IMG/VR virus record: IMGVR_UViG_3300021401_000015
Location: 1-43,644 of that record
Direction: 5' to 3' (one strand)
Source: a virus
Length of the DNA: 43,644 bases
This document shows, piece after piece, positions 929-43,529 of the stretch. Below the pieces are notes generated by a model. It was not told where the DNA came from and made no database searches. It saw only the letters and a list, made by a program, of their open reading frames with translations. The number at the start of each line of letters is the position of its first letter. Position 1 is the stretch's first letter. A program made the position numbers and the translations under genes.

Positions 929-1819
929 ATGCGTTTCAATCGCCAATTTTCCAATGTCCTCGACACGAACCAACTACGTCAACTTGTCCCGTCCGCATAC
1001 GCTACTCAACCGCATGAGTCTAGGTCCTCTCGCTACACCTATATCCCAACGTCTGAAGTTATTGATGGTTTGGTTGCCGAAGGTTTCGCACCATTCAAGG
1101 CGGTCCAGTCTAAGTCACGTATCGAAGGCAAAACGGAGTTCACGAAGCACATGATACGGTTTCGGCACCCTGACGCAATGCAGAGGGCCGGTGTCGGTGA
1201 CAACATTCCAGAGGTCGTCTTAATCAATTCGCATGACGGCACGTCCGCATACAAACTTTTGTCTGGAATCTTTCGGATTATTTGCACAAACGGAATGATT
1301 GTTTGCGACCGCAATATGGGTGAACTTTCCATACACCACAAAGGCAACATTGTTAACCAAGTTATCGAAGGGTCTTTCGAGATAATCGGACAATCGAACC
1401 GGGCACTCGAAACCATTGACACCTGGAGCGGTCTGCAACTTTCGTCCGGTGAGCAAACGGCATTTGCCGAAGCTGCACACTCTCTCCGGTTCGCAGATTC
1501 GGACGGCAAAATTGACACTCCCATAACTGCATCTCAACTGCTAACTCCACGCCGGATAGAGGATCGTGCATCTGACGGTCGCGGGTTCGGTTGGACGCGT
1601 CCGGCACCCGATTTATACCGGACGCTAAACGTAGTGCAGGAGAATGTCATTCGCGGGGGTCTGTCGGCGCGTAACCCTGGAGATTCACGTTCGCGCGGTC
1701 GCATGGTGACTACGCGGGAGGTTCGCGGTATAGATCAAGACGTTCGTCTGAACCGTGCGCTTTGGCAATTGGCTGAGAAGATGGCAGAGCTTAAGGGTGT
1801 CGCACAAATAGCGGCATAA
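929..1819 (+). CDS. DUF932 family protein
   Basis: A 296-residue protein that I recognise as DUF932 (phage/plasmid-related protein). Its core pattern is present: a central KLLSGIFRIICTNGM segment (about 109-123), then CDRNMGE, an IEGSFEI-like stretch and a C-terminal RxLNVVQENVIRGG near 230-243. DUF932 proteins occur on plasmids and phages; their biochemical role is not established. TAGGAG (915-920) gives a good ribosome site for the ATG. The gene stands alone, with its own leader hairpin upstream and a strong stem-loop downstream, so it looks monocistronic. Confidence 0.85.
   Translation: MRFNRQFSNVLDTNQLRQLVPSAYATQPHESRSSRYTYIPTSEVIDGLVAEGFAPFKAVQSKSRIEGKTEFTKHMIRFRHPDAMQRAGVGDNIPEVVLINSHDGTSAYKLLSGIFRIICTNGMIVCDRNMGELSIHHKGNIVNQVIEGSFEIIGQSNRALETIDTWSGLQLSSGEQTAFAEAAHSLRFADSDGKIDTPITASQLLTPRRIEDRASDGRGFGWTRPAPDLYRTLNVVQENVIRGGLSARNPGDSRSRGRMVTTREVRGIDQDVRLNRALWQLAEKMAELKGVAQIAA
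1523..1531 (+). repeat. 9-mer variant ATAACTGCA
   Basis: Variant copy of the dispersed word, inside the DUF932 coding region. Confidence 0.55.
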
Positions 1820-1826
1820 GCAGAGG

Positions 1827-1860
1827 ACACCCTGCGAGGTCTGTTAGACTCGCCGGGTGT
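1827..1860 (+). terminator. strong stem-loop after the DUF932 gene
   Basis: ACACCC (1827-1832) pairs with GGGTGT (1855-1860). Inside it GCGAG pairs with CTCGC and TCT with AGA around a 3-base loop. It starts eight bases after the TAA stop. No T-run follows, so it may be an RNA stability or processing element rather than a classical terminator. Confidence 0.55.
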
Positions 1861-1896
1861 AATGCGCTGGCGGTCCGTTCCAAGTCGGATGCATTA

Positions 1897-5932: not shown

Positions 5933-6166
5933 CTAAAACCACCACTCCACGATTTGCGGTTCGTCGCCTTCGATGCGCTCGATGCGCTGCTTCCCTGCCG
6001 GGACCTTGCGGCGTAGCTCTGCGATGGAGTTGGCGGTGTAGAAGTGTTCCGTGGGCCTGACTTCGTTGGGTCCTCCGTTCTTGCCTCCTTTGATGTGGTG
6101 TTCCCGCATGACGAACTGGTCCGGAAAGTCCTTGGGCCGCTCGTAGATGACCCATATTTTTATCAT
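5933..6166 (-). CDS. hypothetical protein, 77 aa
   Basis: A 77-residue protein starting MIKIWVIYERP and ending EWWF. No domain is recognised; length and style match small accessory proteins of tailed phages. The ATG overlaps the stop of the upstream gene by four bases (ATGA). A longer ORF in another frame (5877-6155) is its shadow. It is the last gene of the accessory block and is followed by the bidirectional terminator. Confidence 0.75.
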   Translation of the reverse strand: MIKIWVIYERPKDFPDQFVMREHHIKGGKNGGPNEVRPTEHFYTANSIAELRRKVPAGKQRIERIEGDEPQIVEWWF

Positions 6167-6846
6167 CGCGGAACTAGCCTCCGTGCCTCGGTGATCTGCG
6201 TTTCAAGGTGCGCGATTCCCTCGGGGCCGTCGTGCTTCTCCGCTGCTTCGCGGAGTAGCGGGATTCCGCTTTCGATGGCGTCTAGGACCTCCCCTCGCGT
6301 TGCGGTGCGGCCTCGGCAATACCACTCCACTTTGAACGGTCGGCCAATCTTGAACAGCACACCGTCTGCTGCCCCTGGGCGGTTGCGAACGGTCTGAAGC
6401 TCATGGCGGCGGGTGTACCACAACAGGGTCACGCCTGGGTTGCGCTCGATCATCACGCCGGGGGCCGGGGTCTTCATTGCTTCGAGTTTTTCGTCGGTGC
6501 GGCGGTGCATGTTGGGCTTGGTTAGAAACGGGCAATTCTTCGCGGCATACTCGGCGCACTCGCGATGACTCGGCGGCTCAGAGCTAATCCGGTTCACGGC
6601 GCACATCGGGCCGATGACGAAAATCTCTTCCAAAAAAAGTTTGCTCCCGCAGGTCCAGCAAAGACGGCCATTGATCGCGGCCCTGAACTTGCGCAAATCC
6701 ATCGCGCGAAACTCCGGCTCTCCGTGTACCCACTGGACAAACCAGGGGACCGGGTAGCCTCGTTTGTCGATGGGTAGCGTCTGCATGAACCTGGGCGGCT
6801 CTGCGATGTCGGGGCGAAGGGGGAACCGATGGGGGCATGTCGTCAT
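6163..6846 (-). CDS. zinc-binding-like hypothetical protein, 227 aa
   Basis: A 227-residue protein. The N-terminal half carries CWTCGSKL, then PMC and HRECAEYAAKNC, a spacing of Cys and His that suggests a zinc site. The C-terminal part (LFKIGRPFKVEWYCRGRTATRGEVLDAIESGIP) is a conserved block I associate with phage hypothetical proteins. No enzymatic motif is visible. It overlaps both neighbours by four bases in a long ATGA-coupled series. Confidence 0.75.
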   Translation of the reverse strand: MTTCPHRFPLRPDIAEPPRFMQTLPIDKRGYPVPWFVQWVHGEPEFRAMDLRKFRAAINGRLCWTCGSKLFLEEIFVIGPMCAVNRISSEPPSHRECAEYAAKNCPFLTKPNMHRRTDEKLEAMKTPAPGVMIERNPGVTLLWYTRRHELQTVRNRPGAADGVLFKIGRPFKVEWYCRGRTATRGEVLDAIESGIPLLREAAEKHDGPEGIAHLETQITEARRLVPR

Positions 6847-7196
6847 GGAGTAAGCGTCTCCCTGAAATGAAGGACCAACCCGGCCACTCTTACGGGGTCG
6901 CCGGGGAAGATTTTATCTAACTCGGTTTTCATATTGGTCAGAAGTTCGTCGCGCTCCTGTTCGAGTTCGCGCTTCACGCGCCGTAGCCTCAGTCCCTCGA
7001 TGAGAAGCAAGACGATCTGCATTGCGCCGAAGATTCCCACGGCTGTCGTCGTCAAAACCATTGCGCGGTGCATGGGCAAGCTGCGGTAGAGGTTCGACGC
7101 TACAGAGATGCCCACATTGATTCCGACAAGAAAAAGGAGGGCGTTGTAACGTAGCTGGCTTGTGTAGGGGAAAACGTCTTTGCGCGGTCGGTTCAT
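6843..7196 (-). CDS. two-helix membrane protein, 117 aa
   Basis: A 117-residue protein. I chose the ATG at 7196 (MNRPRKDV) because AAGGAG lies upstream and it overlaps the preceding TGA; the longer reading from 7343 has an implausible Arg/Pro-rich extension. Two membrane segments are seen (about residues 17-38 and 47-66), followed by a charged coiled-coil-like tail (RRVKRELEQERDELLTNMKTEL). Both ends are probably cytoplasmic. A holin or inner-membrane role is possible but unproven. Confidence 0.7.
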   Translation of the reverse strand: MNRPRKDVFPYTSQLRYNALLFLVGINVGISVASNLYRSLPMHRAMVLTTTAVGIFGAMQIVLLLIEGLRLRRVKRELEQERDELLTNMKTELDKIFPGDPVRVAGLVLHFRETLTP

Positions 7197-7357
7197 GGCT
7201 CTGGCTCCTTGCCCATTCGCTTCAAACTCCATCCGCCGATGTCGGCCAACCGGCGTTCCAGGTGCCAACATACCGCGAACATCTGGCCGCTGCGGTCGTG
7301 GGTGGCCACGATGGGCCTGTCGCATTCTCGCTGGCTCCGGCATTCAAAGCACGGCAT
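7193..7357 (-). CDS. small Cys-rich protein, 54 aa
   Basis: A 54-residue ORF starting MPCFECRSQRECDRP. Cys at 3, 6, 12 and 30 could hold one zinc ion. It fills the gap between two coupled genes and its TGA overlaps the next ATG, which supports coding. No good ribosome site precedes the ATG, so start and reality are less certain. Confidence 0.5.
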   Translation of the reverse strand: MPCFECRSQRECDRPIVATHDRSGQMFAVCWHLERRLADIGGWSLKRMGKEPEP

Positions 7358-8582: not shown

Positions 8583-8728
8583 CGGCCTCCCTTGTGCGCG
8601 GTCATCTCGTGAAACGCCATCCATCTCCAGCGGTTCCACGGCCTCACGTCGCGGGGTGGCCGTGCGTCACAGCGAGGGCATTGACACGCTACCCCGATGT
8701 GGTTGCCGTATTTGCGTGCGGTATACAA
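8579..8728 (-). CDS. possible small CxC/CxxC protein, 49 aa
   Basis: This frame is needed to fill the gap between the zinc-finger gene and the next one, but it has no ATG in a sensible place. The TTG at 8728 gives 49 residues with CQCPRCDARP near the N-terminus, a likely zinc site, and an end overlapping the next ATG. The ATG at 8926 would overlap the upstream gene by 260 bases and is unlikely. The start is uncertain. Confidence 0.4.
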   Translation of the reverse strand: MYTARKYGNHIGVACQCPRCDARPPRDVRPWNRWRWMAFHEMTAHKGGR

Positions 8729-9233
8729 GCTCTGCGAACCGGGCGGCAAACATGCGTTCAGGAATGTCGTACTGAGTCGCCATGCTGCGGCAAATTTCGG
8801 TGAATCTGCCGAGGGTAATGGCGAGGGCGACCTCAAGGGCGCGGTCACTAGCTGCAACGCTGGCTTCTTCGGCATGGGCGTGGTGTCCATTCTGGCTAAC
8901 AGGGATGGCTTCGGTGATTTTGGCAAGTTGGCTCCTCTTGGTGTCGGTGCGTTTCGGTTTGTGTTTCCTGGCTATGTGGTTTTTGAGTCCACCTACCCAC
9001 GACGCTACAAAGTCGCACTCCGGGCAGGGGAACTTTCCCTTGGTACGGTTGGGCCAAGTGCTGAGGTCCCGACCGTTGATGGCCTTCTGGTGCTGCTTCC
9101 GTTTGGCGACGGACGATCTTCCGGTCCCCACATATCCGTGCGCGAAGCGGCGATGGGTGGCGAGTCCTTTGGCTGTCGGGTAGGGTGCATGGTCGCAGTC
9201 GGGGCATTGGTGGTTGGCTTTCGTGGTCGTCAA
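8667..9233 (-). CDS. two C2H2 zinc-finger protein
   Basis: A 188-residue protein with two C2H2-type fingers. The first is CPDCDHAPYPTAKGLATHRRFAH (Cys10/13, His near 27-32) and the second CPECDFVASWVGGLKNHIARKH (about 70-91). These can bind DNA or RNA. The C-terminal half is helical (AEEASVAASDRALEVALAITLGRFTEICRSMA). C2H2 fingers are uncommon in bacterial proteins but do occur in phages. The gene is coupled to its neighbours by overlaps. Confidence 0.8.
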   Translation of the reverse strand: MTTTKANHQCPDCDHAPYPTAKGLATHRRFAHGYVGTGRSSVAKRKQHQKAINGRDLSTWPNRTKGKFPCPECDFVASWVGGLKNHIARKHKPKRTDTKRSQLAKITEAIPVSQNGHHAHAEEASVAASDRALEVALAITLGRFTEICRSMATQYDIPERMFAARFAELVYRTQIRQPHRGSVSMPSL

Positions 9234-11026: not shown

Positions 11027-12391
11027 TTAGGCCGTCGCCGGAATCTTTTTCTTGCCCGTCGCTTTCTTTACGATGGGCGCGGGGGTCTTGTCCAGCGGCT
11101 CCTCGTTGATGGCCTTTACTTCGCCGTCTTCGAGGTATACACCAACCTTGCCCGTTTGACTGACCTGCTCGATCCATACTTGGAAGTCGTGAGCGTGACT
11201 CATCTCCGCGATGATCTTCAGGCTCTTGTCGTCCAACAGGGACCCGTCCTTGATACGCATCACGCGAAGCTCGGGGTTTGTCGCCATGCCGATAGCGACA
11301 CTGGCCCTGATCTGGTCGGCGTTCGATACCTGCGCGAACGGAAACCCGCGATAGATAACTTCATCGTCACCGAAGGCCAAGCCGGGTACGGGAAACTCGG
11401 CGGATTCGATGGCCTTGGTCTTCGTCTCCTCGCTGTGCTTGAGGGCCGTGCTAAGGGTCGCAATCTCCGCGTCGAGCCGTTCAATGGCCTCGGTGTAGCT
11501 GTCGCGCAAGCGGCGGCGGTCGAGTCCCTGATTGATCGCCCTGGCCTCGGTGATCTTCGCGGCGAGTGTGGCGGCGTTCTTCAGCTTCGGCAAGTCCTCC
11601 CATTTGTCTATCTCCGCATCAACCTTCGCCAACGTCTTCGCCCAATCGTTCGCCTCGGCCTCTAATTGGTCGGCCTGGGCGCGAAGTTCAGCGACCCGCT
11701 CCCGCTGGTCTGCAATGTCGGTCGATAGCGTGTCGCGGTGATTCGCCTTCTCATTGCGCTCCCGCTCCTGCCGTGCGATGCCATCGTTGTAGTTGCTGGC
11801 CTCCTGAAGCTCCTTCACCAGCGCGGCCTCGTCTACCTTCTCCTTGGGCAGATTGTCGGGCACGGCGATGGCGTTGCGGCGGACCTCTTCGTTGTCCCGC
11901 TCCTTCTTCAGTTCGCGGCGGCGGAGGTAGTCGCGGTCGTAGTCTGCCTTCAGGCTGGTCAGGTCCACGTCCACCTTCACGAGTCCCTGTAGGACCTCGA
12001 ACTGTTTCTTGGGGTGCATCCGTAAAAACTCCAGCGGGTCAAAGCTGATCTTCCCCATGAGCGCATCGAGCATTTGCTGGGGCGATTGATAGCGGCTCTT
12101 GTTCGCCTTCGATTCGAGCGCAAGGGTCCCGTTCTTGTTGCCACCCTCGAAGAATCGTCGGGTCACAACGATGTCGCCAAGGTCTAGCTGAATGACGGCC
12201 TTGCCGGAGCCTTTGCGGACCGGCTGCGAAGCTACGTTGCTGGTGCCGGTCAAGGCCCATTCGATAGCGTCCAACAGGCTGCTCTTGCCGGAGCCGTTCG
12301 CGCCGGAGATGCGGTTGATGTACTCGTTCGGCGTCAGTTCCACGATGCCAAGACGTTTCACGTTTTCAGTCTTAATGCCAATAATTCGCAA
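11027..12391 (-). CDS. SMC/SbcC/RecF-like ATPase
   Basis: A 454-residue ABC-type ATPase of the SMC/Rad50/RecF superfamily. Walker A is GANGSGKSS (30-38) after a RecF-like N-terminal beta strand. Long coiled-coil segments run from about 145 to 330. A signature-like VSNADQIRAS (355-364) and a degenerate Walker B region around 375-387 close the head. Phage proteins of this kind are usually linked to DNA recombination or end processing. No partner nuclease (SbcD or exonuclease) is seen. The start is TTG at 12391, with GAGGAG upstream; the gene begins two bases after the previous stop. Confidence 0.8.
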   Translation of the reverse strand: MRIIGIKTENVKRLGIVELTPNEYINRISGANGSGKSSLLDAIEWALTGTSNVASQPVRKGSGKAVIQLDLGDIVVTRRFFEGGNKNGTLALESKANKSRYQSPQQMLDALMGKISFDPLEFLRMHPKKQFEVLQGLVKVDVDLTSLKADYDRDYLRRRELKKERDNEEVRRNAIAVPDNLPKEKVDEAALVKELQEASNYNDGIARQERERNEKANHRDTLSTDIADQRERVAELRAQADQLEAEANDWAKTLAKVDAEIDKWEDLPKLKNAATLAAKITEARAINQGLDRRRLRDSYTEAIERLDAEIATLSTALKHSEETKTKAIESAEFPVPGLAFGDDEVIYRGFPFAQVSNADQIRASVAIGMATNPELRVMRIKDGSLLDDKSLKIIAEMSHAHDFQVWIEQVSQTGKVGVYLEDGEVKAINEEPLDKTPAPIVKKATGKKKIPATA

Positions 12392-12596: not shown

Positions 12597-12826
12597 TTCG
12601 TTCCCTCTCTCTTGCTGTCTTCGCGGTCGCGCTCCAAAGTGGAGATGCGTCCCTCATTGTTGACGTGGCGGTCAACGAAGTGATTGAACAGTGATCGCAT
12701 CTCGGTAATGTCTGCGCGTACTTCGGTGCGGAGAGAATTGACCGCGCTGCCGTTGAGCAGAATCCCGATGATGGCCACGATTGTTGGGATTGAGACGGCG
12801 AGTAAAAGCTGGCCGAACGTAATCAT
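12593..12826 (-). CDS. small membrane/coiled-coil protein, 77 aa
   Basis: A 77-residue protein with an N-terminal membrane helix (LLLAVSIPTIVAIIGILL, about 7-24) and a coiled coil with RISTLERDRED near the end. It overlaps the next gene by four bases and looks like its duplicate. Membrane anchoring with a cytoplasmic or periplasmic coil is all that can be inferred. Confidence 0.75.
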   Translation of the reverse strand: MITFGQLLLAVSIPTIVAIIGILLNGSAVNSLRTEVRADITEMRSLFNHFVDRHVNNEGRISTLERDREDSKREGTN

Positions 12827-13038
12827 CGCGCACCTGCCTTCTTTTTGGTCGCGGTGCGTCTGGCCCCGTTGGTGCGGGGTTCGGAGTGCGGGTTATTGAG
12901 GGAGAGATAGAAGTCCACGATTTTATTGAGCATTGAAGTCCGGTCGCGGTGGTCGGCTGCGGCCATCTCGTCAATGATTTTTACCGTGGCAGACGGGCAG
13001 AAGAAGTTGACCTTTGTTTTGTCCATATCATCTACCAT
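12823..13038 (-). CDS. ribbon-helix-helix-like DNA-binding protein
   Basis: About 71 residues. The core KTKVNFFCPSATVKIIDEMAAADHRDRTSMLNKIVDFYLSL (about 8-47) has the strand-helix-helix pattern of Arc/CopG-type regulators: a short strand, a helix, a turn, and a second helix. The C-terminus is basic (NGARRTATKKKAGAR). The start could be 13038 (MVDDMDKT) or 13026 (MDKT); neither has a strong ribosome site, and the reading from 13098 runs into the terminator. It is the first gene after a leftward terminator, so it probably has its own promoter. Candidate regulator or plasmid-maintenance protein. Confidence 0.7.
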   Translation of the reverse strand: MVDDMDKTKVNFFCPSATVKIIDEMAAADHRDRTSMLNKIVDFYLSLNNPHSEPRTNGARRTATKKKAGAR

Positions 13039-13070
13039 ACTCTGTTGGATTCCGTAATGTCTAGGGGGTT

Positions 13071-13113
13071 TAAATAAAAAATGCCCGGAGGGGGCCAACT
13101 GCCTCTCCGGGCC
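13071..13113 (-). terminator. rho-independent terminator of the late operon
   Basis: On the minus strand GCCCGGAG (13112-13105) pairs with CTCCGGGC (13090-13083) and is followed by ATTTTTTATTT. It ends the leftward structural operon, after the small coiled-coil gene at 13170. Confidence 0.8.
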
Positions 13114-28669: not shown

Positions 28670-29818
28670 CTAGGTGATGGCCGAGGCCGCGTCGGAGTAG
28701 CGGAGACGCATTACCGGGTCGGGTGGAAGGGTCGCGGTGTACATCGTGTTGTACGAAGCGAAACCTCCAATCATCCTGGACGGGTCATACCCGCTCGGCT
28801 CGGTCAATCGCCGCACCCACACTTGCAGGTTGCGCCAATCGCCGTCGCCAATCTGCGTGTTTTCCTTCGCGCCGAACGAGATGCCGATTACGGCGTCTTT
28901 TCCGACAACATAGGTGCGGAGTTTGGTGGGCGCGGTGCCGGTCTGCGTGACAAGGGTGGATTGATGGAAACGCGCTCCGCCCCAATCAATCACCGTTACT
29001 TCGTCGCCGTCCGGTGCCGGTAGCTCCCGCAACTTCTCCTGGCCCTCCGCCGTCCTCTTCAGAACGTCGGTGATGCCGTTCGGCTGCGTGGAGATGAGGA
29101 TGTCGCCCACGATCAACGGGTGGATGACTCCGGTGAAGCGGCCGTTTTCAAAGGGCAGGGCATTGACCGCAGACAACGATTGCACCATCGAAGTGATGTC
29201 CTGCGCGATGAGGCCGGTCGAGTCGATGGGAACGTGGATGACCGATGGGTCTACGACTGCTGCGCCGTCCGCCGTGTTCTGGACGATAAGGTTGATGACC
29301 TGGGCCATGCGGTAGGCCATCTGCACTCCCAACGCTTCAAGCGCGGGGTCGATGGCGGTTTGCAGGGCATAGGTCGAGATGTTCGCGTAGTCTGCATAGT
29401 TGCCGATTGTGCTTGTGTTCTGCACGACCGAAACCGTGAGGCCGGTCTGTATCGTGCCTTCCGGTGCCTGGGTCAGCGGCGGGGCCGGAAGGTTTTGATA
29501 CATGAAGAGCGCAAGTTTGTTACCTGCGTTCTCGTCCAGTGTGCGGCGAGACGTGCAGCGGACCCAGGGCGTCTCAGCTTTAAGGTTCTCGATGAAAACC
29601 TTGTCAAAACTGGTGACGACCGACTGCGGTAGGTTGGTGGTCAAGTTAGACGCTGGTGAAACCCCAACGGCCAACGCACCGTGGACGCGATAACGCGCCA
29701 CGTCTCCCGTCCAAAAGAAGAGTTGTCCGCCGACTGCGGCGGCAAACTCGATGAACGGAATAACTACATTTCGGCAAAACTGTCTGCCGCGCTCTGCGGC
29801 CCTTGAATTGTCTCGCAT
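28670..29818 (-). CDS. major capsid protein (N4 gp56-like family)
   Basis: A 382-residue protein. The block SNLTTNLPQSVVTSFDKVFIENLKAETPWVR with LALFMYQNLPAPPLTQAPEG (about 57-120) matches the N4-gp56-like major capsid family, as do the later ADYANIST and a C-terminal GYDPSRMIGGFASYNTMYTA. GGGGGA lies eight bases before the ATG at 29818. This start gives about 50 residues before the family core, a possible N-terminal extension. It lies after the scaffold-like gene, as expected. Confidence 0.8.
   Translation of the reverse strand: MRDNSRAAERGRQFCRNVVIPFIEFAAAVGGQLFFWTGDVARYRVHGALAVGVSPASNLTTNLPQSVVTSFDKVFIENLKAETPWVRCTSRRTLDENAGNKLALFMYQNLPAPPLTQAPEGTIQTGLTVSVVQNTSTIGNYADYANISTYALQTAIDPALEALGVQMAYRMAQVINLIVQNTADGAAVVDPSVIHVPIDSTGLIAQDITSMVQSLSAVNALPFENGRFTGVIHPLIVGDILISTQPNGITDVLKRTAEGQEKLRELPAPDGDEVTVIDWGGARFHQSTLVTQTGTAPTKLRTYVVGKDAVIGISFGAKENTQIGDGDWRNLQVWVRRLTEPSGYDPSRMIGGFASYNTMYTATLPPDPVMRLRYSDAASAIT
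29760..29768 (+). repeat. dispersed 9-mer ATAACTACA
   Basis: Exact copy near the capsid gene start, read as Val-Val-Ile. Confidence 0.8.
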
Positions 29819-31810: not shown

Positions 31811-31987
31811 TTATCCGCCTCCTGGGTGACATGCTTTAAGGTGATCGCAATAGACGCAGTAGTCCGAACGTCCTCCCTCCAAAAAATCATCACAAGGGCC
31901 AAGATTTTCCGGGTAGGTCGAACACGCGCAATTCGTGCGTGGATTCCGAGGAGTCATCGTTGTGTCACAAAGGGGTTTGCCCATCAT
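31811..31987 (-). CDS. small Cys-rich protein, 58 aa
   Basis: A 58-residue ORF with ATGATG start at 31987 and TAA at 31813-31811. AGGAGG lies five bases upstream, an excellent ribosome site. The start overlaps the portal stop (ATGA) and the stop abuts the next ATG. Cys-rich: CDTT, NCACSTYPENLGPCDD, YCVYCDHLKAC, so probably a zinc-binding mini-protein. The perfect packing makes it almost surely real. Confidence 0.75.
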   Translation of the reverse strand: MMGKPLCDTTMTPRNPRTNCACSTYPENLGPCDDFLEGGRSDYCVYCDHLKACHPGGG

Positions 31988-34104
31988 CCGCCTCCTGTGG
32001 GTGCGTAGAACTGGCTGGCTTGCATCCCGCGCTCGTCGGCGGTGCGCTCGGCAAAGGCGGCGGCACGTTCGAGCGGCGATTGCACTAGGGTCTGGTGGGT
32101 GGTGTCGATGCTCTTGGCCGCGATGCGACCGGCGATTTTTTTGTCTTCAAGGTCCATGTCGTTCTGGTGTTTCTGCTGTAGCTCGGCGGCGGTCGATTGC
32201 GCCTTGATCGCGGCGGGGTTCTGCTGCATCATCATTTGCTTCTCTTGGTCGGTCATCGGAACAATGAGGTCGGCCCGGTTCTTCCACTCGCTCATATCGA
32301 GGACCATCTTCACCAGTTCCATGACGTTGACCTTGTAACCGACTTGGCTCATCTGTTGGACGAGTGCCTGGTTGCCAAAGACTTCTAGTAAAAATGGCAG
32401 TGCCTGGGCCATGCGGTTCCGGGCGGCGAGTTTTGTACCTGCCAAGGTTTCAAATTTGACGTTGGTCCGCATGAAATCGCCAAAGTCCACCACGAGGTCA
32501 GCCGTGCGCTCGCCCAGGATGTCGCGAATTTCCTGTATCGGCATCCGCTCTTTGACCATCTGCCAGAGGAAGTTGAGGAAGGGAAGGAACACCCCGTCAA
32601 CGAAGCGTTCGACCGGCGATTGCAAACGACCCGAGGAAGCGGCCTGGAGCATCCCCGCGCCTGTACCGGAGTGCCCCACACTGCTCCCCCGGCCTGGGAG
32701 GACCCCTTGAACAGTTGCTTGGTCTGCGCCGGTCGCGCCTTCGCTCGAACCGATGGCGGCTTGTATGGCCCTCCATGCGTCGGGCGGAGGGTTCGGCTGC
32801 GGCACGAGCGCGACGGCCTTGGTCGCGTCGGCCCCGTCCACCATGCGGATGCCACCCAGCCTTCGCCGCTGGTCCTGAGTCGGCACATTCGCTCCCCGCG
32901 CGATTGCATACTCAGGTTGGACGGCGAAGGCCAGGATATCGAGGATCGCGTTCATCATCCCCTGCTCGACGCGCTGGTCCGCGCCGGAGATGCGACCCAC
33001 ACCCATTCCATAGCCGGAGTTCTCGATGTCCCAATAGTTCGCACTCAGAAACGGCTTGTCCGGTAGTTTGTGTTTCCCGTTGCGAATAACGCATTTTTGT
33101 TGTAGCACCACACGGACCTGGGTCTTGTCGTACCACTCCAGGACCTGCATCGGCTTCTGTAGCGGGTCCTCGCTGAAGTCCTGGTCCGGCATCGCGGCAT
33201 GGTGGACGTTGGTGCTTGCCACCATAGCTTGCTCAAGCGAGTTCGCGGATTCGGTCTGCTCCTCGTCGGACATGAAGATGTGGCGGAGAACGTCGTCGGG
33301 CGGGATGTCGTAGTCGGGGTTCTCGCGGAGCTTCGTGAGGTCGTCATAGTTCAGGTAGTCCTCATAGACAATCCACTTTGCCTTCCATAGTTGGTTGGGG
33401 TTGCACCACTTGGGGTCTACAAACACCTGACCGATATTGCACTTCTCGAAGAAGGGCCGGTTGCGCGTCACTTCCACGTCCACGGCCTCAAACTCGTCTG
33501 ACTCCTCGGTGTAGATGGTCAGGGGCTTGCCAAAGGGCATGGGCACTTGCGGCGGTGCGCTCTTCCTGTGGTAGTGCGTCTCCACCGTCGTCTCCGTCAC
33601 CCATCCGATTTTGAAGATGACGGTGCCGGAGTTGACCATCGCCTGGATGCCATAACTACACTCTTGCTTGAAATTGATCTGGTCGAGGAGTTCGGAGACA
33701 AGCTCCGTCCATGCCCTCGTCGTGTCCTGATGGGTGTTGGGCCGGGGGCGAACCAGGAACGGGGTCGGGTCCGAAAAAACGGCCCCGGTGATTGCCGGGG
33801 CCAGAGAGTTCGTTTGTTTCGCCACTGTGAAGCGTGAGACGTTCGAGCGCGTGACGGTGGACCCCTCGAAGACGCTTAGGGTCCGCGGCGATTGGTAGAG
33901 TACGTCGCTCTCGGTCCATTGCAGGGGCCAACGGCGGTCATTGAGCCACGCGCTTGCCCTCTCATAGTCCTGTACTACGATGCTGATAGCGGCTTGGTCG
34001 GTGTACTTTGCAGCGATGGCGGGGTCGGGCGAGGTCTTGATGTCCCTGGGCAGCACTGGTCTGCTGGGATTACTGGTCAGCGGCAATGTTGCGCTTGCGG
34101 CCAT
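31984..34104 (-). CDS. portal protein
   Basis: A 706-residue protein, the right size for podophage portals. Features: IVVQDYERASAWLNDRRWPLQW at the start, a central GKHKLPDKPFLSANYWDIENSGYGMGVGRISGADQRVEQGMMNAILD (about 350-395), then GADATKAVALVPQPNPPPDAW, and a Gln/Met-rich helical C-terminus (QEKQMMMQQNPAAIKAQSTAAELQQKHQNDM). This arrangement is that of portals in N4/acidobacterial-type podophages. It stands between terminase and scaffold genes. It forms the dodecameric DNA channel at one capsid vertex. Confidence 0.8.
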   Translation of the reverse strand: MAASATLPLTSNPSRPVLPRDIKTSPDPAIAAKYTDQAAISIVVQDYERASAWLNDRRWPLQWTESDVLYQSPRTLSVFEGSTVTRSNVSRFTVAKQTNSLAPAITGAVFSDPTPFLVRPRPNTHQDTTRAWTELVSELLDQINFKQECSYGIQAMVNSGTVIFKIGWVTETTVETHYHRKSAPPQVPMPFGKPLTIYTEESDEFEAVDVEVTRNRPFFEKCNIGQVFVDPKWCNPNQLWKAKWIVYEDYLNYDDLTKLRENPDYDIPPDDVLRHIFMSDEEQTESANSLEQAMVASTNVHHAAMPDQDFSEDPLQKPMQVLEWYDKTQVRVVLQQKCVIRNGKHKLPDKPFLSANYWDIENSGYGMGVGRISGADQRVEQGMMNAILDILAFAVQPEYAIARGANVPTQDQRRRLGGIRMVDGADATKAVALVPQPNPPPDAWRAIQAAIGSSEGATGADQATVQGVLPGRGSSVGHSGTGAGMLQAASSGRLQSPVERFVDGVFLPFLNFLWQMVKERMPIQEIRDILGERTADLVVDFGDFMRTNVKFETLAGTKLAARNRMAQALPFLLEVFGNQALVQQMSQVGYKVNVMELVKMVLDMSEWKNRADLIVPMTDQEKQMMMQQNPAAIKAQSTAAELQQKHQNDMDLEDKKIAGRIAAKSIDTTHQTLVQSPLERAAAFAERTADERGMQASQFYAPTGGG
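33652..33660 (+). repeat. dispersed 9-mer ATAACTACA
   Basis: Exact copy in the portal gene, read as Cys-Ser-Tyr. Confidence 0.8.
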
Positions 34105-34511: not shown

Positions 34512-34520
34512 TGTAGTTAT
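34512..34520 (-). repeat. dispersed 9-mer ATAACTACA at a gene junction
   Basis: Exact copy between terminase stop and the next ATG, preceded by TAGAAT on the same strand. Confidence 0.85.
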
Positions 34521-36244
34521 TCTAACCCCGGCATCATCACTTCCAAACCAAGCTCGTTGAATAGCCTCTCCTCCACGCCGGGGACCTCTATTTCTTCCGG
34601 CTCCGGCTCCGAAGGCGTGTAGACACCGCGCCCATAAATCAGGTTGTACTTGTCCCTCTCGCGCATCATCTCCCACGCGAGGTCTTCGTCATCAAGCTCG
34701 GTCGCGGCGATGCTCACCGGCAAGTTGTCGGCAATCCGCGAGACTACATCGGGTAGTCCGTTGTCGTCGGTCATCCCGTATTGTACGAAGCCCTGAATCA
34801 GCGGCTTGGTCTTGAGGCCAGTCGAGAAGTAGAGCCGTGACGATGCCAGTAGCGGCTCGATGCTGCGGATGCGGGTATCGCGCTCTCCGCCGTCGCCCTG
34901 GAAGTCCACCCACGTTACGAAGATGTCCCAGCCGGTCGTCAGGCTGTAGTTATTGATCGCCGGTTGAATCAGACGCGCTCCCGGCGAGTCTTCGATTTCG
35001 ACGGTGTGCATTCCGTTGCGCCGCGCCGTGTCGTGAATCAGCTTCGCCAACACCGAAGGCTTGTAGTGGCCCTGTATCGTCTCGATGATGTACATGCGGT
35101 TGCGATGCATGAGGCCCACCGCGCCGGAGGTCATCAACCAGTTGAGGCTCCGGCACGGTAGTCGGAAGTGGATGAACCGCTGGCCCTCCATCGGTAGCTC
35201 GGCCTCCTCGGTCATCGCGGCAAGCATCTGCGCGTCGGTGAAGACAAGTTCTGCGGCCCCGTAGCTGTCCAATTGATATTGCGACATGAATGATTCAAAG
35301 TCGGCCTCATACTCCTCGCGCAAAAAGTCGTAGCTGAGGATGGTGGGGAAGAGAAGTTCGACTTCGTTTTCGGGCGGAAACCCGTTGGGGTCCAGTCGTT
35401 CGCCATTCAGCAGCCGAAGTGCCGGTTTGAATACCCGGTCGTAGCTCCCAGGCCGCGCCGTCAATACCTCGTCGCTGAAGGTGTCTCCCAAGCCGTAGGG
35501 GGTCCCGATCTTGATTTCGATGCCGGTGGGCTTCAGGATTTTCCGGGTGAGTTTGTAGGCTTTAGTGACGGCCACGCGGCCTTCAAATTTTTTGGAGTTG
35601 CGATTGGTATTGATGTCGTCGTACACCAGCACGTCGGGGTGCCATCCGGTCGTGTTCGAGTCAATCGAGTTCGCCCATATCATCGGCTCTACGATCTTGG
35701 GTTCGGTCTGCCGCAAAGGGCCGGTAAACTGGCCGGGGACCGGCTGCTTGATGGCGCACAATTCGGGGAAGAGTGCCTGGAAGAGTGTCGCCGGTCGGCG
35801 CGGCTCCTTGATGAAGAAGCTGGCAATCTGGTCCACAAAGGCGAAGGCCAGGTCTTTGCCGCCGCTCATAATCAGAATGGCGATGGTGAAGTAGTAGTGA
35901 AGGATGAGTTGGACACAGTAGGCGATGTCGAGTGTAGTTTTGTAGGTGTTGCGCGGGTAGAGAAGCGTTCGCCGTCGCTTGCGGCCTTTGTATAGCTCCT
36001 CGGTCGTCTGGTCGGGGTCTATCTCCGGAAAAAACTGGATGGCCTCATGGTGAACGTCCTCGGTGATGAGGCAATAGCCCAACGTGTAGCAGAGCGCGAG
36101 TAGGTTGGTCTTGCAGCATCGCCGTCCGTCCTCCTTCACATCCTCTTCGTGTAAAACTCGGTCAGTTAGCTCCGCTCTCCAGGCCGCATTGTTCGCACCC
36201 TCTTGGTAGGGGTCCCTCAATCGCCTCCAATTAAATCCGCTCAT
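34517..36244 (-). CDS. terL: terminase large subunit
   Basis: A 575-residue packaging motor and nuclease. The ATPase has a Walker A-like LYPRNTYKTTL (95-105; RNTYKTT in place of GxxxxGKT, as in many phage terminases) and Walker B VLVYDD (205-210), followed by INTNRNSKKFE. The C-terminal nuclease half contains GLMHRNRMYIIETIQGHY and TVEIEDSPGARL. It cuts concatemers and drives DNA into the prohead. No small terminase subunit is recognised, although a small upstream gene could serve. Its start codon touches the divergent HNH gene. Confidence 0.85.
   Translation of the reverse strand: MSGFNWRRLRDPYQEGANNAAWRAELTDRVLHEEDVKEDGRRCCKTNLLALCYTLGYCLITEDVHHEAIQFFPEIDPDQTTEELYKGRKRRRTLLYPRNTYKTTLDIAYCVQLILHYYFTIAILIMSGGKDLAFAFVDQIASFFIKEPRRPATLFQALFPELCAIKQPVPGQFTGPLRQTEPKIVEPMIWANSIDSNTTGWHPDVLVYDDINTNRNSKKFEGRVAVTKAYKLTRKILKPTGIEIKIGTPYGLGDTFSDEVLTARPGSYDRVFKPALRLLNGERLDPNGFPPENEVELLFPTILSYDFLREEYEADFESFMSQYQLDSYGAAELVFTDAQMLAAMTEEAELPMEGQRFIHFRLPCRSLNWLMTSGAVGLMHRNRMYIIETIQGHYKPSVLAKLIHDTARRNGMHTVEIEDSPGARLIQPAINNYSLTTGWDIFVTWVDFQGDGGERDTRIRSIEPLLASSRLYFSTGLKTKPLIQGFVQYGMTDDNGLPDVVSRIADNLPVSIAATELDDEDLAWEMMRERDKYNLIYGRGVYTPSEPEPEEIEVPGVEERLFNELGLEVMMPGLE
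34945..34953 (-). repeat. dispersed 9-mer ATAACTACA
   Basis: Exact copy in the terminase gene, read as Asn-Asn-Tyr. Confidence 0.8.
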
Positions 36245-39016: not shown

Positions 39017-39426
39017 TCCGCCTCGCTGTCAGACTCCACGTAGTCTCCTGCGCCGGTCAGACCAACGTCCGAAGGGCTTAGGCGGGTAGTCATGTTGGGT
39101 TTGGGCTTCGGGCCGCGCTTCTTCGGCGGGTTGGCTTTACGATACTCCCGTTCGGCAATCTCTTCCGGCGAAAGTTCCGCGTCGGGTGGTGGATTTTTTT
39201 CCTCGAACCTGCGCCAACGCAGGTATCGGGTGCGCTCGGCCAGTGACGCGGGGCGGCGGCAATACCGGCACTCTCGGGCGTCCTGTTTGCTGCGCCTCCA
39301 GTTCTTACGCCGGTCGCTGCACTCTTTCGAGCAAGTGATTGCGTGTTTGGGGCGGTCGGGGCCGATGACGTTGCCGCACATCACGCAATGGGGGGTTACA
39401 TCGGAAAAGTTGTCTACGCGGGGCAT
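39013..39426 (-). CDS. zinc-ribbon protein, 137 aa
   Basis: A 137-residue protein with two Cys clusters: CVMCGNVIGPDRPKHAITCSKECSDRRKNWRRSKQD (about 14-48) and CRYCRRPASLAERTRY. The first is a treble-clef or FCS-like zinc finger (Cys-x-x-Cys, Cys-x-x-x-Cys). A long basic, Pro-rich linker (PKKRGPKPKP, an AT-hook-like core) and an acidic tail follow. It likely binds nucleic acid. Coupled to rusA by overlap. Confidence 0.7.
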   Translation of the reverse strand: MPRVDNFSDVTPHCVMCGNVIGPDRPKHAITCSKECSDRRKNWRRSKQDARECRYCRRPASLAERTRYLRWRRFEEKNPPPDAELSPEEIAEREYRKANPPKKRGPKPKPNMTTRLSPSDVGLTGAGDYVESDSEAE

Positions 39427-39857
39427 TGTTCCTCGATTCTTTCAATTACAAACTCGGTCCGCGGGTTGGCGCGGTCGTTCTTGACTACATTTACGATCTG
39501 CTGGCCGATGAAGGCGTCGGAGTGGATGACTCCTGCGGCCTCAAGTCCGTCGAAGGCCACTTTTGCGCCGTTGTCGCTGTCGAGCCTCACGTTCGGGCCT
39601 AGCACCACGGTCATCTCCACGCGGTAGCGCACCTTGTCGCGCTCTTTCTGTGTCTCCGGGGCGACGGTGCGGCCCCTGGCATAGATGGCGACGGCCCACT
39701 TGTACGCTTTGGCCTCCGGGGTCAGCTTCATCCCTTTGCGGCTGCGGCGGCGTCCGGCCTTGTCCGTGTAGGTGAAGGCGCAGGGCACCTTGAAGTGGTT
39801 GACGCTCGGCGGCGTCAACCCCGGCACAGTGAACGCGACGATTTTTTCGATTGCCAT
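39414..39857 (-). CDS. rusA: RusA-like Holliday junction resolvase
   Basis: A 147-residue protein matching RusA. GLTPPSVNHF at the start, TPEAKAYK (46-53), and the catalytic block RLDSDNGAKVAFDGLEAAGVIHSDA (91-115). Asp93, Asp95, Lys99 and Asp114 keep the spacing of the E. coli RusA active site (Asp70, Asp72, Lys76, Asp91). It resolves branched DNA, needed before or during packaging. It is the first gene of the leftward arm, divergent from the ribbon-helix-helix gene. Confidence 0.85.
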   Translation of the reverse strand: MAIEKIVAFTVPGLTPPSVNHFKVPCAFTYTDKAGRRRSRKGMKLTPEAKAYKWAVAIYARGRTVAPETQKERDKVRYRVEMTVVLGPNVRLDSDNGAKVAFDGLEAAGVIHSDAFIGQQIVNVVKNDRANPRTEFVIERIEEQCPA

Positions 39858-39885
39858 CCTTCAATAATATAACTACACTGTGACT
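39858..39885. promoter_or_regulatory. divergent control region between the two arms
   Basis: A 28-base gap between divergent rusA and the ribbon-helix-helix gene. It is AT-rich (TAATAT at 39865-39870) and holds one exact 9-mer. TTGCCA (39851-39856), 17 bases, TACACT (39874-39879) is a possible rightward promoter; TATATT on the minus strand could serve rusA. Any protein on the 9-mer would affect both. Confidence 0.5.
39869..39877 (+). repeat. dispersed 9-mer ATAACTACA in the divergent gap
   Basis: Exact copy eight bases before the ATG of the ribbon-helix-helix protein; a natural autoregulatory operator position. Confidence 0.85.
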
Positions 39886-40134
39886 ATGGCTACTAAAAAA
39901 GTCGTTCATAATAGCACTTATGTTAAGGGGGTCGGTCGGCGGTCGAAGAAGAAAAAGGGCATCGTCGTCCAGTCAATCCGGCTCCTGGTGGTGGACAACA
40001 AACGTTTGCACGATGCAGCAAGGGAATCGGGCATTTCGTTCAACGGTTGGGCATCGAAAACCCTCGTTCGTGAGGCCGATAAGGTCCTCAAGCGCAAAGA
40101 GGCTGCAAAAATAAAGAAAGTGACGGAGGAGTAA
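39886..40134 (+). CDS. ribbon-helix-helix DNA-binding protein, 82 aa
   Basis: An 82-residue basic protein. A Lys/Arg-rich N-terminus is followed by strand SIRLLV (30-35), helix A NKRLHDAARESG (39-50), SFNGW turn and helix B ASKTLVREADKVLKRK (56-71), a clear Arc/CopG-type fold. It probably dimerises and puts its strand in the DNA major groove. Start ATG 39886; a GTG two codons earlier is possible. It heads the rightward arm right beside an exact 9-mer, so it is the best candidate to bind ATAACTACA and repress both arms. That link is inference. Confidence 0.75.
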   Translation: MATKKVVHNSTYVKGVGRRSKKKKGIVVQSIRLLVVDNKRLHDAARESGISFNGWASKTLVREADKVLKRKEAAKIKKVTEE

Positions 40135-40601: not shown

Positions 40602-40781
40602 ATGGCAGATGACCGGCTCGACCGGATTGAAAAGTCCATTGAGGATTTGACGAAGGTGGTAAATCGGCTCGGGCGATATGCAATGGTGATCGCCCGGTAT
40701 CACGAAAACGAACTTGGCGACCATGCTAGGCGGATTCTGGCACTGGAAGAGGGAGAGAATGGCGACACTATACCGCACTGA
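40602..40781 (+). CDS. small coiled-coil protein, 59 aa
   Basis: A 59-residue protein, MADDRLDRIEKSIEDLTKVV followed by NRLGRYAMVIARYHENELGDHARRILALEE, a coiled coil. AGAAGGAG precedes the ATG closely. It starts directly after the tiny membrane gene and overlaps the next gene by 23 bases. Function unknown. Confidence 0.65.
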   Translation: MADDRLDRIEKSIEDLTKVVNRLGRYAMVIARYHENELGDHARRILALEEGENGDTIPH

Positions 40782-41052
40782 TGGCCGCACCGAAGAGTTG
40801 AAGCCCCCAAACGGCGTCCACTGGAGCCTCCAGGAGCTTCAGACCCTCGTCGGCGGCTACATCGAGGTCGTCCGCACCACGAACGGCGAGTTTATGGTGA
40901 TTGACGAAGAGGGGAAGCTCAAGCACAAGGAGTTGAATATCCCCGCAACGCGGCTCTACCAGTACGGTCGTCACGACCCTATTGTTGGTGACGCGGTGGT
41001 GATCGGCACTATGTTTGAGATGGACGGGCCAGAGGACGGGCCGGAGGATTGA
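40759..41052 (+). CDS. DUF3846-like protein, 97 aa
   Basis: A 97-residue protein. ELKPPNGVHWSLQELQTLVGGYIEVV (about 12-37), then NGEFMVIDEEGKLKHKELNIPATRLY and DPIVGDAVVIGT, the full pattern of the DUF3846 family found on phages and plasmids; the biochemical function is not known. Start 40759, with AAGAGGGAGAG upstream; the ORF from 40714 has an unlikely extension. Confidence 0.75.
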   Translation: MATLYRTDGRTEELKPPNGVHWSLQELQTLVGGYIEVVRTTNGEFMVIDEEGKLKHKELNIPATRLYQYGRHDPIVGDAVVIGTMFEMDGPEDGPED

Positions 41053-41360
41053 TGGTCAGGAACCGCTTCACGGCGACGGGCTACACCGGGCAGACACCTT
41101 TGCGGTTCTGCCCGGTTTGCTTTCACAAGCTCGATGGCGTGACGAACCTCACCGGGCAGGAGAAGCCGGAGCCTGGGGATTTCACGGTTTGCATAAGCTG
41201 TACTGCTATTCTCCGGTTCACCACCGGCAACGATCTTGAGTTGTCCTCGCTTGAGGCCGTGCCGGTCCATCTGCGGTTTGAATATGCGAAGGTCATCCGA
41301 ATGTTGAAAGAAAGCCCACCGCCGCTGAGGGCGAAAAATTATGTACGCAGAGACAAGTGA
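41052..41360 (+). CDS. zinc-ribbon-like protein, 102 aa
   Basis: A 102-residue protein with RFCPVCFHKLDGVTN and DFTVCISCTAILRF (Cys-x-x-Cys pairs about 27 residues apart), a zinc ribbon. Start ATG at 41052 overlaps the previous TGA. C-terminus basic. Function unknown. Confidence 0.7.
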   Translation: MVRNRFTATGYTGQTPLRFCPVCFHKLDGVTNLTGQEKPEPGDFTVCISCTAILRFTTGNDLELSSLEAVPVHLRFEYAKVIRMLKESPPPLRAKNYVRRDK

Positions 41361-41658
41361 AACGGCGCGGTTCGCGGACCCCGCCAACCCTAGCGCGATC
41401 CTATTCCGCGACCTGCGCGACGGGCGCGGCGTGTGGGTCTACCCGATGACCTTCACGTTCAAACTGGTGATCGGGCGGGTTGGCTCTCCCGTTTATGATA
41501 GCGACTGGTGCTATAAAGATTGCGCGAGTGTAGTTATTGCCTTTGCCGAATGGAATCCGCTCGAAACGGCGGAGCCGGAGGGCTGGGTACGTCATCCACG
41601 AACGGGCCGTCGCCGCTTTCCAGACGGCGACCCCGCAACCGAAGAAGTGAGGCTATGA
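41341..41658 (+). CDS. hypothetical protein, 105 aa
   Basis: A 105-residue beta-rich protein with GRGVWVYPMTFTFKLVIGRVG and SDWCYKDCASVVIAFAEWNP, a block I have seen in other phage genomes. It overlaps the previous gene by 20 bases and the next by four. One exact 9-mer lies in the Val-Val-Ile frame. Confidence 0.7.
   Translation: MYAETSETARFADPANPSAILFRDLRDGRGVWVYPMTFTFKLVIGRVGSPVYDSDWCYKDCASVVIAFAEWNPLETAEPEGWVRHPRTGRRRFPDGDPATEEVRL
41529..41537 (-). repeat. dispersed 9-mer ATAACTACA
   Basis: Exact copy, the last one before the RepA and origin region, which holds none. Confidence 0.8.
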
Positions 41659-41909
41659 TTCGCACACCTGAACAGTATTGGGAAACGCTTCTACGCGCTT
41701 TTCCCCCTGGCATACCAGATTCAAAGATAGTTGCCTTTCGCCGCACCTTTTTCAGCGGCATGAGCGCGATGGTTTCGCTTATGGCGGAACTACGAGAGTC
41801 ACCCTTGGGGGAGTCGGAAAAACAGGCTCTCTATCGGAGATTTGCCGAGTATATTCATCGAAATGACGGTCTTGAGGAGGATTCGAGGACGAATGGGCGC
41901 AATAACTGA
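41655..41909 (+). CDS. hypothetical helical protein, 84 aa
   Basis: An 84-residue protein starting MIRTPEQYWETLLRAFPPGI at the ATG 41655, which overlaps the previous TGA (ATGA). Helical throughout (VAFRRTFFSGMSAMVSLMAEL, EKQALYRRFAEYIHR). It overlaps repA by 17 bases, so repA translation may be coupled to it. Such coupling is common for plasmid rep genes. Confidence 0.7.
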   Translation: MIRTPEQYWETLLRAFPPGIPDSKIVAFRRTFFSGMSAMVSLMAELRESPLGESEKQALYRRFAEYIHRNDGLEEDSRTNGRNN

Positions 41910-42954
41910 AAAGGCGAAATCACCGTTCTCTCTTGGCGATGAAGCAATGGCCGAAATAATCGAACAAGTGTGGGGCCGCGATGTTCTCGATAATCCCCGC
42001 CTTGGTTTCAATCACCTGATTCAAACGTCGTGTTTTTTGCCGAGTAAAGACCCCGGCGAGATACCAATGTGGCAGCGCAAAGATGGCGGTCTGACAATGA
42101 CGATGACTCGGGGTCCCGCCATGAATCCGGTTACAAGGGAGGCGGAGCTACAGGGGTATCCTCATGGGCTGTGGCCGCGTCGGTTTCACAGCATCATCAA
42201 CGCTGAGATTTTGCGGAGCCGTTCACGAACGATCTACTGCGGTCGAGGTTTCTGCGAGTTTTTCAGGGATAAGATGTCTGTGCGGATGACGGGCGGGGCG
42301 AACGGTAATATCCGACACATGAAGAATCAGTTTTCGCGGCTATCGGCGGCGAATCTAGTGTTCTTCATGCACAACGACAAGCGGATTGTGATGCTGAGTC
42401 CAGCGCGGATGATTGAGGCAACGGATATGTGGCTGGACGGCGATGAGGAGCACTGGCCGTCATTTCTCCTAGCGTCACAAGCCTATTGTGACGACCTGTT
42501 TCAGAATGCCGTTCCCATCGACCTGCAAGCTGCTTCGCGCATCAAGGGGTCGATGGAATACGACTTCTACACTTGGGTCACTCGCCGCGTCTACAGCCTC
42601 GTCGTGAGCGGTCAGCGGAGCGTGGCGATCACCTGGGGGTCGCTGAAGTATGCGATGGGCTACAGCTACTCGCGACTAGACCATTTCCAGTCGGAAATTC
42701 GGGCCATCATTCGGCATCTGAAGGCCGAGGTCTACCGTGATCTGAATATCCGCGAGAGTCAAACGGGTTTGGTTCTCTACGCGGGGCCGCTGGCGGTTCC
42801 TGAGCGCAAACTGTGGGCTGGTTACACGGAGCCGAAGCAGATACCGATGTTCGCGGATGACCGCCGCTTCGATGACCCTTTTCCACAGGAGGAGGAGAGA
42901 AGGGTGGTAGTCAAAACCATCACCATCACAAAACGCCAAGTTGTTCAAAAATAA
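41893..42954 (+). CDS. repA: plasmid RepA replication initiator
   Basis: A 353-residue protein matching the plasmid RepA family (PF04796 type). Key blocks: YPHGLWPRRFHSIINAEILRSRSRTIYCGRGFCEFFRD (89-126), MTGGANGNIRHMKNQFSRLSAANLVF (132-157), PVPID-like AVPIDLQAASRIKGSMEYDFYTWVTRRVYSL (206-236), and ITWGSLKYAMGYSYSRLDHFQSEI (246-269). It binds iterons and opens the origin. I start at 41893 (MGAITEKAKS); the ATG 51 bases earlier would enlarge the overlap. Four iterons follow directly. In a phage genome it is strong evidence for plasmid-style replication. Confidence 0.85.
   Translation: MGAITEKAKSPFSLGDEAMAEIIEQVWGRDVLDNPRLGFNHLIQTSCFLPSKDPGEIPMWQRKDGGLTMTMTRGPAMNPVTREAELQGYPHGLWPRRFHSIINAEILRSRSRTIYCGRGFCEFFRDKMSVRMTGGANGNIRHMKNQFSRLSAANLVFFMHNDKRIVMLSPARMIEATDMWLDGDEEHWPSFLLASQAYCDDLFQNAVPIDLQAASRIKGSMEYDFYTWVTRRVYSLVVSGQRSVAITWGSLKYAMGYSYSRLDHFQSEIRAIIRHLKAEVYRDLNIRESQTGLVLYAGPLAVPERKLWAGYTEPKQIPMFADDRRFDDPFPQEEERRVVVKTITITKRQVVQK
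42879..42887 (+). promoter_or_regulatory. DnaA-box-like site
   Basis: TTTTCCACA, one mismatch from TTATCCACA, inside the 3' end of repA. Confidence 0.45.
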
Positions 42955-42962
42955 ACTGATAA

Positions 42963-42980
42963 TCACGCATAATCGCCGGG
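42963..42980 (+). repeat. iteron 1
   Basis: TCACGCATAATCGCCGGG. Lies 84 bases (start to start) before iteron 2. Confidence 0.85.
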
Positions 42981-43011
42981 ATAAGCCATCGAAGGTCGTC
43001 TCCTTCGGGGC

Positions 43012-43020
43012 TTTTCCACA
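43012..43020 (+). promoter_or_regulatory. DnaA-box-like site
   Basis: TTTTCCACA, one mismatch from the E. coli consensus, between iterons 1 and 2. Confidence 0.5.
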
Positions 43021-43046
43021 TAAAATCTGTGAAATCAATGACTTTT

Positions 43047-43064
43047 CCACGCATAATCGCCGGG
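43047..43064 (+). repeat. iteron 2
   Basis: CCACGCATAATCGCCGGG, 46 bases before iteron 3 (start to start); its left edge overlaps a third DnaA-like TTTTCCACG. Confidence 0.85.
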
Positions 43065-43092
43065 AACCAAAAATCAACCACTTGCAAGCGTT

Positions 43093-43110
43093 TCACGCAT
43101 AATCGCCGGG
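43093..43110 (+). repeat. iteron 3
   Basis: TCACGCATAATCGCCGGG, 22 bases before iteron 4, about two helix turns, so both lie on the same DNA face. Confidence 0.85.
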
Positions 43111-43114
43111 GAGT

Positions 43115-43132
43115 CCACGCATAATCGCCGGG
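43115..43132 (+). repeat. iteron 4
   Basis: CCACGCATAATCGCCGGG, last of the array. Confidence 0.85.
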
Positions 43133-43226
43133 GACCCTTTAATGTATTACCGTAGTTTCTACCGTAAGAAACTGTTTCCGGTAGGGGTGAAGCCCTGCGA
43201 CGTGGAAATCGGGAGGGCAAGAGCGC

Positions 43227-43529
43227 ATGAAAGACCGAATCGGCAACAAGTTGGCGTTGAAGGACAAGGTTCTGGTCGAATTGCCGACTTCGAGCATCAT
43301 TGGCTTCATCGCAGAGTTGCAGGAGCCGGGAGTGGTGGCCATCCGGCGAGGGACGGCGGCGGGCATGACTCCAGGGCGGGTCTTGGTGTCGTGTGTGATC
43401 GCGTTGCCGGTCGATGCGGAGCAAAACGCGGTCGGCCAGTTGGTCAAGGTGCATGATGCGGAGCGAGATGGCCTCAAGGAGCCATCGCAAGGTGAAAAAG
43501 GTACGTCAGGGCCACAACTGACGAACTGA
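43227..43529 (+). CDS. conserved phage protein, 100 aa
   Basis: A 100-residue beta-rich protein: MKDRIGNKLALKDKVLVELP then SSIIGFIAELQEPGVVAIRRG and MTPGRVLVSCVIALPVDAE. I recognise this barrel-like pattern (K-D/V-x-D-x-V-L-V ... T-P-G-x-V-x-V-x-C-x-I) from small phage proteins of unknown function. GGGAGGG precedes the ATG. It follows the origin and is the last gene before the window end. Confidence 0.7.
   Translation: MKDRIGNKLALKDKVLVELPTSSIIGFIAELQEPGVVAIRRGTAAGMTPGRVLVSCVIALPVDAEQNAVGQLVKVHDAERDGLKEPSQGEKGTSGPQLTN

Follow-up and report, generated by a model that had tools for sequence, protein, structure and literature searches.

Does a plasmid-type replication initiator, lying beside direct repeats in the genome of a tailed phage, maintain that phage as a plasmid, or does it serve the phage's own replication? 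The question is raised by the repA locus of a 43,644-nt viral DNA (IMG/VR record IMGVR_UViG_3300021401_000015, analyzed over its whole length and here called the window). A plasmid-type initiator is often treated as a phage-plasmid marker, and a preliminary description of the window had proposed an extrachromosomal plasmid as the lysogenic form. The terL, portal, and capsid genes that it placed in the same contig were all recovered by Pfam or PHROG matches: the terminase large subunit TerL (34517 to 36244, minus strand; phrog_38, E = 9.7e-28), an SU10-type portal protein (31984 to 34104, minus strand; PF23899, E = 1.8e-23), and the major head protein (28670 to 29818, minus strand; phrog_1357, E = 1.5e-8). 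On the evidence below, we think it probable that in this tailed phage of a soil bacterium, with its SU10-type portal, the plasmid-type replicon is an exchangeable module, the only one for initiation that was recognized, and that it is used for the phage's own replication.

The RepA gene and its adjoining repeats

The repA gene (41893 to 42954, plus strand) encodes a protein of 353 aa. A profile search of this ORF gave the replication initiator family RepA_C (PF04796; E = 7.9e-11; score 43 bits, cut-off 26) and no other Pfam family, which confirms the complete RepA-family ORF described earlier. The ATG start is backed by an N-terminus, MGA[IL]TE, that is conserved in several relatives, and the RepA_C score exceeded the cut-off in the window and in four of five relatives tested (up to E = 2.6e-20 in relatives). 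By tblastn, the protein was similar to the RepA of 817 plasmid records, the best match being from Pseudonocardia (E = 4e-26, 28.8% identity). A structure model built from eight relatives was of low confidence (pLDDT 57 overall, with residues 190 to 300 better), and its four best PDB fold matches, which are to RctB and RepE54 (best E = 0.0055), both initiators that act on iterons, may point the same way; a sequence search of the PDB gave no match.

Other known RepA_C proteins come from plasmids, which counts against the role in phage replication favored here. None of the PHROG families matched the window RepA, and no annotated phage among 50,697 records was matched by two RepA queries; the sole "phage" match, an unannotated 3.9-kb clone flagged UNVERIFIED, was discarded. 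Scanning viral and genome collections directly with peptide patterns from the window RepA also gave nothing, because RepA diverges too fast for such patterns, and its alignment contains no stretch conserved enough for scanning. A literature search with most subscription journals outside its coverage gave no description of RepA_C in phages of this kind.

Downstream of repA, an 18-bp direct repeat (YCACGCATAATCGCCGGG) is present in four exact copies on the plus strand, starting at 42963, 43047, 43093, and 43115. Iteron 1 (TCACGCATAATCGCCGGG; 42963 to 42980) begins 8 bases past the repA stop codon, in agreement with the four identical repeats within ten bases of the gene noted before, and iteron 2 (CCACGCATAATCGCCGGG; 43047 to 43064) is followed after 46 bp by iteron 3 (43093 to 43110) and after a further 22 bp by iteron 4 (43115 to 43132). 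The spacing of the last three, 45 to 46 and 22 to 23 bp, is kept in most genomes of the family that carry RepA. No further copy was found in the window with up to three mismatches allowed (0.15 expected), and none of 100 shuffled sequences contained four copies.

The DnaA-like boxes of the preliminary description were also borne out, since the only two matches to TTWTNCACA in the 43.6-kb window, both TTTTCCACA on the plus strand, lie at the origin beside the iterons, one near the end of repA (42879 to 42887) and the other between iterons 1 and 2 (43012 to 43020). DnaA boxes are enriched at the same place in relatives, with a box at most 330 bp after repA in 10 of 12 other RepA rows, some of which are near-identical. 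The AT-rich segment reported at the origin is present, although modest, with at most 62% AT in 60-bp windows compared to about 42% overall.

A similar arrangement was seen in the Xanthomonas citri RepA_C plasmid pCFBP2012-87, in which CACGCAGAATCG iterons come right after repA, as in the window; plasmid and phage have a CACGC-AATCG half-site in common, and a DnaA-type box lies nearby. The Xanthomonas plasmid repeats just after repA read CACGCAGAATCGGAC, and the phage cassette therefore matches plasmid replicons in detail, although two of the four plasmids examined had no repeats downstream of repA. On every feature tested (a PF04796 initiator, adjoining iterons, and a DnaA box), the window replicon is a RepA_C iteron replicon. 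Unlike RepA_C iteron plasmids, it is surrounded by the genome of a tailed phage, which has terminase, portal, and capsid genes and in which no ParA or ParB was found.

The replication slot in related genomes

We located relatives by way of TerL, DUF932, and the gene at 43227. Searching IMG/VR with TerL gave 64 related contigs (49 to 99% identity, many of 40 to 45 kb), the 65th match being remote. The full-length relatives compared were collinear with the window at about 64 to 85% nucleotide identity, except at about 41.2 to 43.2 kb: blastn similarity ends by 41201 and returns at 43221 to 43228. A cassette (41202 to 43220, plus strand) without nucleotide similarity to otherwise collinear relatives is thereby delimited. 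A conserved gene recognized by family comparison (43227 to 43529, plus strand) forms its right border; the conserved left neighbor is a DUF3846 gene (40714 to 41052, plus strand; PF12957), and a small gene left of repA (41049 to 41360, plus strand) is conserved in the family as well.

Such a gap in similarity is what a chimera, or a recent one-off plasmid insertion with no role in the phage, would also produce. Comparison across the family refuted contamination of this kind, because initiators are what this slot carries in relatives too: of the relatives whose sequence extends into it, almost all have an initiator-like gene there, and RepA with iterons occurs in 12 other genomes, from several metagenomes and with intact reading frames. 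We therefore regard an assembly or insertion accident as scarcely credible. Among 38 genomes, the slot held RepA and iterons in 13, an O-like HTH_36 initiator in 21, and a third initiator-like ORF in 4. The HTH_36 proteins match phage replication-initiation families (phrog_270, E = 2.1e-9), while the third class, a longer ORF resembling replication organizers, is less certain because it is based on one weak PHROG match. At least four changes of slot type were counted over the 38 rows of a quick, unrooted TerL tree, on which gain and loss of cassette types look alike.

Exchange is also evident among the RepA genomes themselves. L142 and L145 are 92% identical in TerL and 24% in RepA, whereas L136 and L145 are 70% identical in TerL and 92% in RepA; the window and its nearest relative, L004, share 85% identity in TerL and 24% in RepA. 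Iterons adjoin repA in all 13 RepA genomes surveyed, downstream of the gene in 12 and differently placed in L121, where repA is inverted and four copies of a different iteron, GCGCCCCCACTCCATCCC, lie between it and the same neighboring gene; none of 20 HTH_36 genomes had iterons downstream of the initiator. Over nine distinct genomes, iteron distance rose with RepA distance (r = 0.72, Mantel p = 0.0006), whereas TerL distance showed no such correlation (r = -0.20, p = 0.92); the half-site CACGC was kept in all nine while the other half varied. By sequence comparison, then, the iterons differ between genomes and track RepA, not the phage backbone. Since the iterons adjoin repA and track RepA, and a plasmid shares the layout and half-site, we conclude that a plasmid-type replicon resides inside this tailed phage. 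What the earlier description overlooked is that the replicon is a swappable cassette, in which, as these comparisons show, initiator and matching origin move together in a fixed slot.

In lambdoid phages, the O protein and its cognate ori iterons are exchanged as a unit. The family studied here resembles them in that initiator and cognate iterons are exchanged together and in that its HTH_36 members match O-like families; it differs in that the window initiator belongs to RepA_C, the iterons lie outside the gene, and no lambda P-like helicase loader was recognized. Fast divergence and exchange of RepA and iterons would also suit a function in competition, for example, titration of the initiators of resident plasmids or other phages, with the true origin elsewhere. 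Such a function is very unlikely, given that no other initiator was recognized and that the slot is otherwise filled by proteins matching phage replication initiators. Models of the HTH_36 and organizer classes detected no second initiator in the full RepA genomes.

Plasmid maintenance or productive replication

Virion and packaging genes (TerL, portal, and capsid) are combined here with a plasmid-type initiator, as in phage-plasmids. The prophage could accordingly exist as a low-copy plasmid whose replication starts from RepA and the iterons, with lytic growth from the same or another origin. RepA and the iterons are plasmid-like, an integrase is absent, and plasmid incompatibility could underlie the frequent exchange of initiators. 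Moreover, the mycobacteriophages Miko, Rachaly, and Jeeves, which are tailed like the window phage, have a RepA-like protein supporting autonomous replication and no integration cassette, and lysogenize extrachromosomally (PMC7157519). Those phages, however, are temperate and carry parABS, neither of which was found in the window phage, and ParA (PF13614) and ParB (PF02195) were absent from all 25 contigs searched (the window and 24 relatives), while control genomes gave matches. A partition system is common, though not universal, in phage-plasmids.

The family was also not encountered as an episome. Its TerL was present in none of 72,556 plasmids and was not found in 84,980 genomes of bacteria and archaea by a limited scan that used only exact peptide patterns. 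Neither the window nor its relatives had terminal repeats indicative of circularity, all family contigs checked were classed as linear, and fixed ends are common to the family. The protelomerase (PF16684) of an N15-like linear plasmid prophage and the tyrosine integrase (PF00589) of an integrating temperate phage were each absent from the 25 contigs; serine recombinases were sought solely through the Pfam scan of the window ORFs. That scan, covering 50 ORFs, recognized no repressor or partition protein, but since most of the ORFs match no family, a novel repressor, a partition system, or a second initiator could be hidden among them. O-like initiators, finally, occupy the same slot in close relatives. 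We consider maintenance as a plasmid prophage unlikely, and of the first interpretation the lysogenic plasmid is the part that found no support, while the plasmid-type origin with RepA, iterons, and DnaA boxes stands.

The reported lack of integrase, polymerase, primase, and helicase genes was upheld, as none had a Pfam match in the 50 window ORFs, and with no polymerase, primase, or helicase recognized, the dependence on the host replisome that had been proposed is a fair inference. Most likely, RepA is the sole initiator of the phage and serves lytic growth through that replisome. RepA would bind the four iterons that follow repA, open the DNA together with host DnaA at the adjacent boxes, and recruit the host helicase and replisome. 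Later steps may be assisted by two proteins that the earlier reading had missed, a RusA-like Holliday junction resolvase (39414 to 39857, minus strand; PF05866, phrog_34) and a clamp-loader-like AAA+ ATPase of 214 aa (185 to 829, plus strand; PF00004, phrog_5846 with E = 1.5e-24, and phrog_168). Most relatives carry a homologue of the latter near their left end, and a search of 50,697 phage records at E ≤ 1e-8 gave no match to it. An SbcC-like AAA protein (11027 to 12391; Pfam) had also been missed. In relatives, divergent RepA/iteron sets or initiators of unrelated types have taken the place of the cassette.

Phage P1 likewise has a plasmid-type RepA initiator and origin. The P1 origin has iterons, and P1 keeps its lytic initiator separate. 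P1 also has ParAB, whereas in the window phage there is one initiator slot and no partition system was found. Because the slot holds O-like initiators in close relatives and the RepA genomes carry no second initiator of the modeled types, RepA acting in productive replication fits better than a P1-like division between plasmid and lytic origins. It is conceivable, although we hold this only tentatively, that a virulent tailed-phage lineage took plasmid RepA/iteron replicons as its lytic origin, swapping them freely with O-like initiators. If so, lytic phages would fall into plasmid-style replicon types, which bears on host range, plasmid compatibility, and co-infection. RepA alone should not be used to call a phage-plasmid, because this family has RepA without other recognized plasmid functions and the slot is elsewhere of phage type. 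On a single phage backbone, the family moreover provides a set of naturally occurring initiator/iteron pairs suited to tests of recognition specificity, incompatibility, and origin exchange.

Genome ends and additional features

Near-complete contigs of the family, all classed as linear, start and stop in the interval that separates the gene at 43227 from the clamp-loader gene. By eye, about a dozen left ends (G004, G006, G010, G017 to G019, G021, G022, G036, G037, G041, and G042), eight of them by pattern match, fall at a shared site, as do the right ends of G006, G018, G036, and G041. Shortly before they stop, the left ends carry a conserved promoter-like motif that faces outward (TTGACT, 17 to 18 nt, TATGC). 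Because about a dozen contigs stop at one site, linear DNA with fixed ends is suggested, and the simplest reading is that the sequences stop at the fixed physical termini of a linear molecule; the window appears to stop short of both. Fold-backs with arms of 16 to 69 nt were seen at eight contig ends, compared to one of 18 contig breaks in the genome interior, and 160-mers drawn at random from internal sequence reached at most 14 nt. The ends may be hairpins that close the molecule, or they may be open, with the fold-backs arising as snap-back artefacts. N15-like telomeres, which the fold-backs had suggested, were rejected, as no protelomerase was found and the loops are non-palindromic.

An apparent circular permutation of G023/L054 came down to its DUF932 gene lying on the other strand. 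L161 runs past the shared end and was set aside as a view of the left end, since it is there joined to DNA with an IS1-like transposase; its positions 1 to 2758 encode this transposase and a HigA-like protein, and the junction may be an insertion, an integration, or a chimera. In the early operon of L140 (IMGVR_UViG_3300036821_000038), the initiator is followed by homologues of window genes that belong to the late leftward block (6163 to 7343), an arrangement that we read as a rearrangement at the genome ends.

Elsewhere in the window, a protein with C2H2-type zinc fingers, unusual for a phage, is encoded at 8667 to 9233 (minus strand; PF13909, E = 1e-8). Two small proteins without a family match (39880 to 40134, plus strand, and 12823 to 13098, minus strand) look ribbon-helix-helix-like by eye, and the first of these, conserved across the family, is encoded at the start of the early operon. 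Directly 3' of the DUF932 gene, at 1819 to 1889 (plus strand), a type-P5 twister ribozyme scored above the Rfam gathering score. Seven relatives (L099, L101, L103, L106, L116, L028, and L031) have this ribozyme in the equivalent position, L116 with two copies, and it is thus a predicted conserved self-cleaving RNA of the phage early operon.
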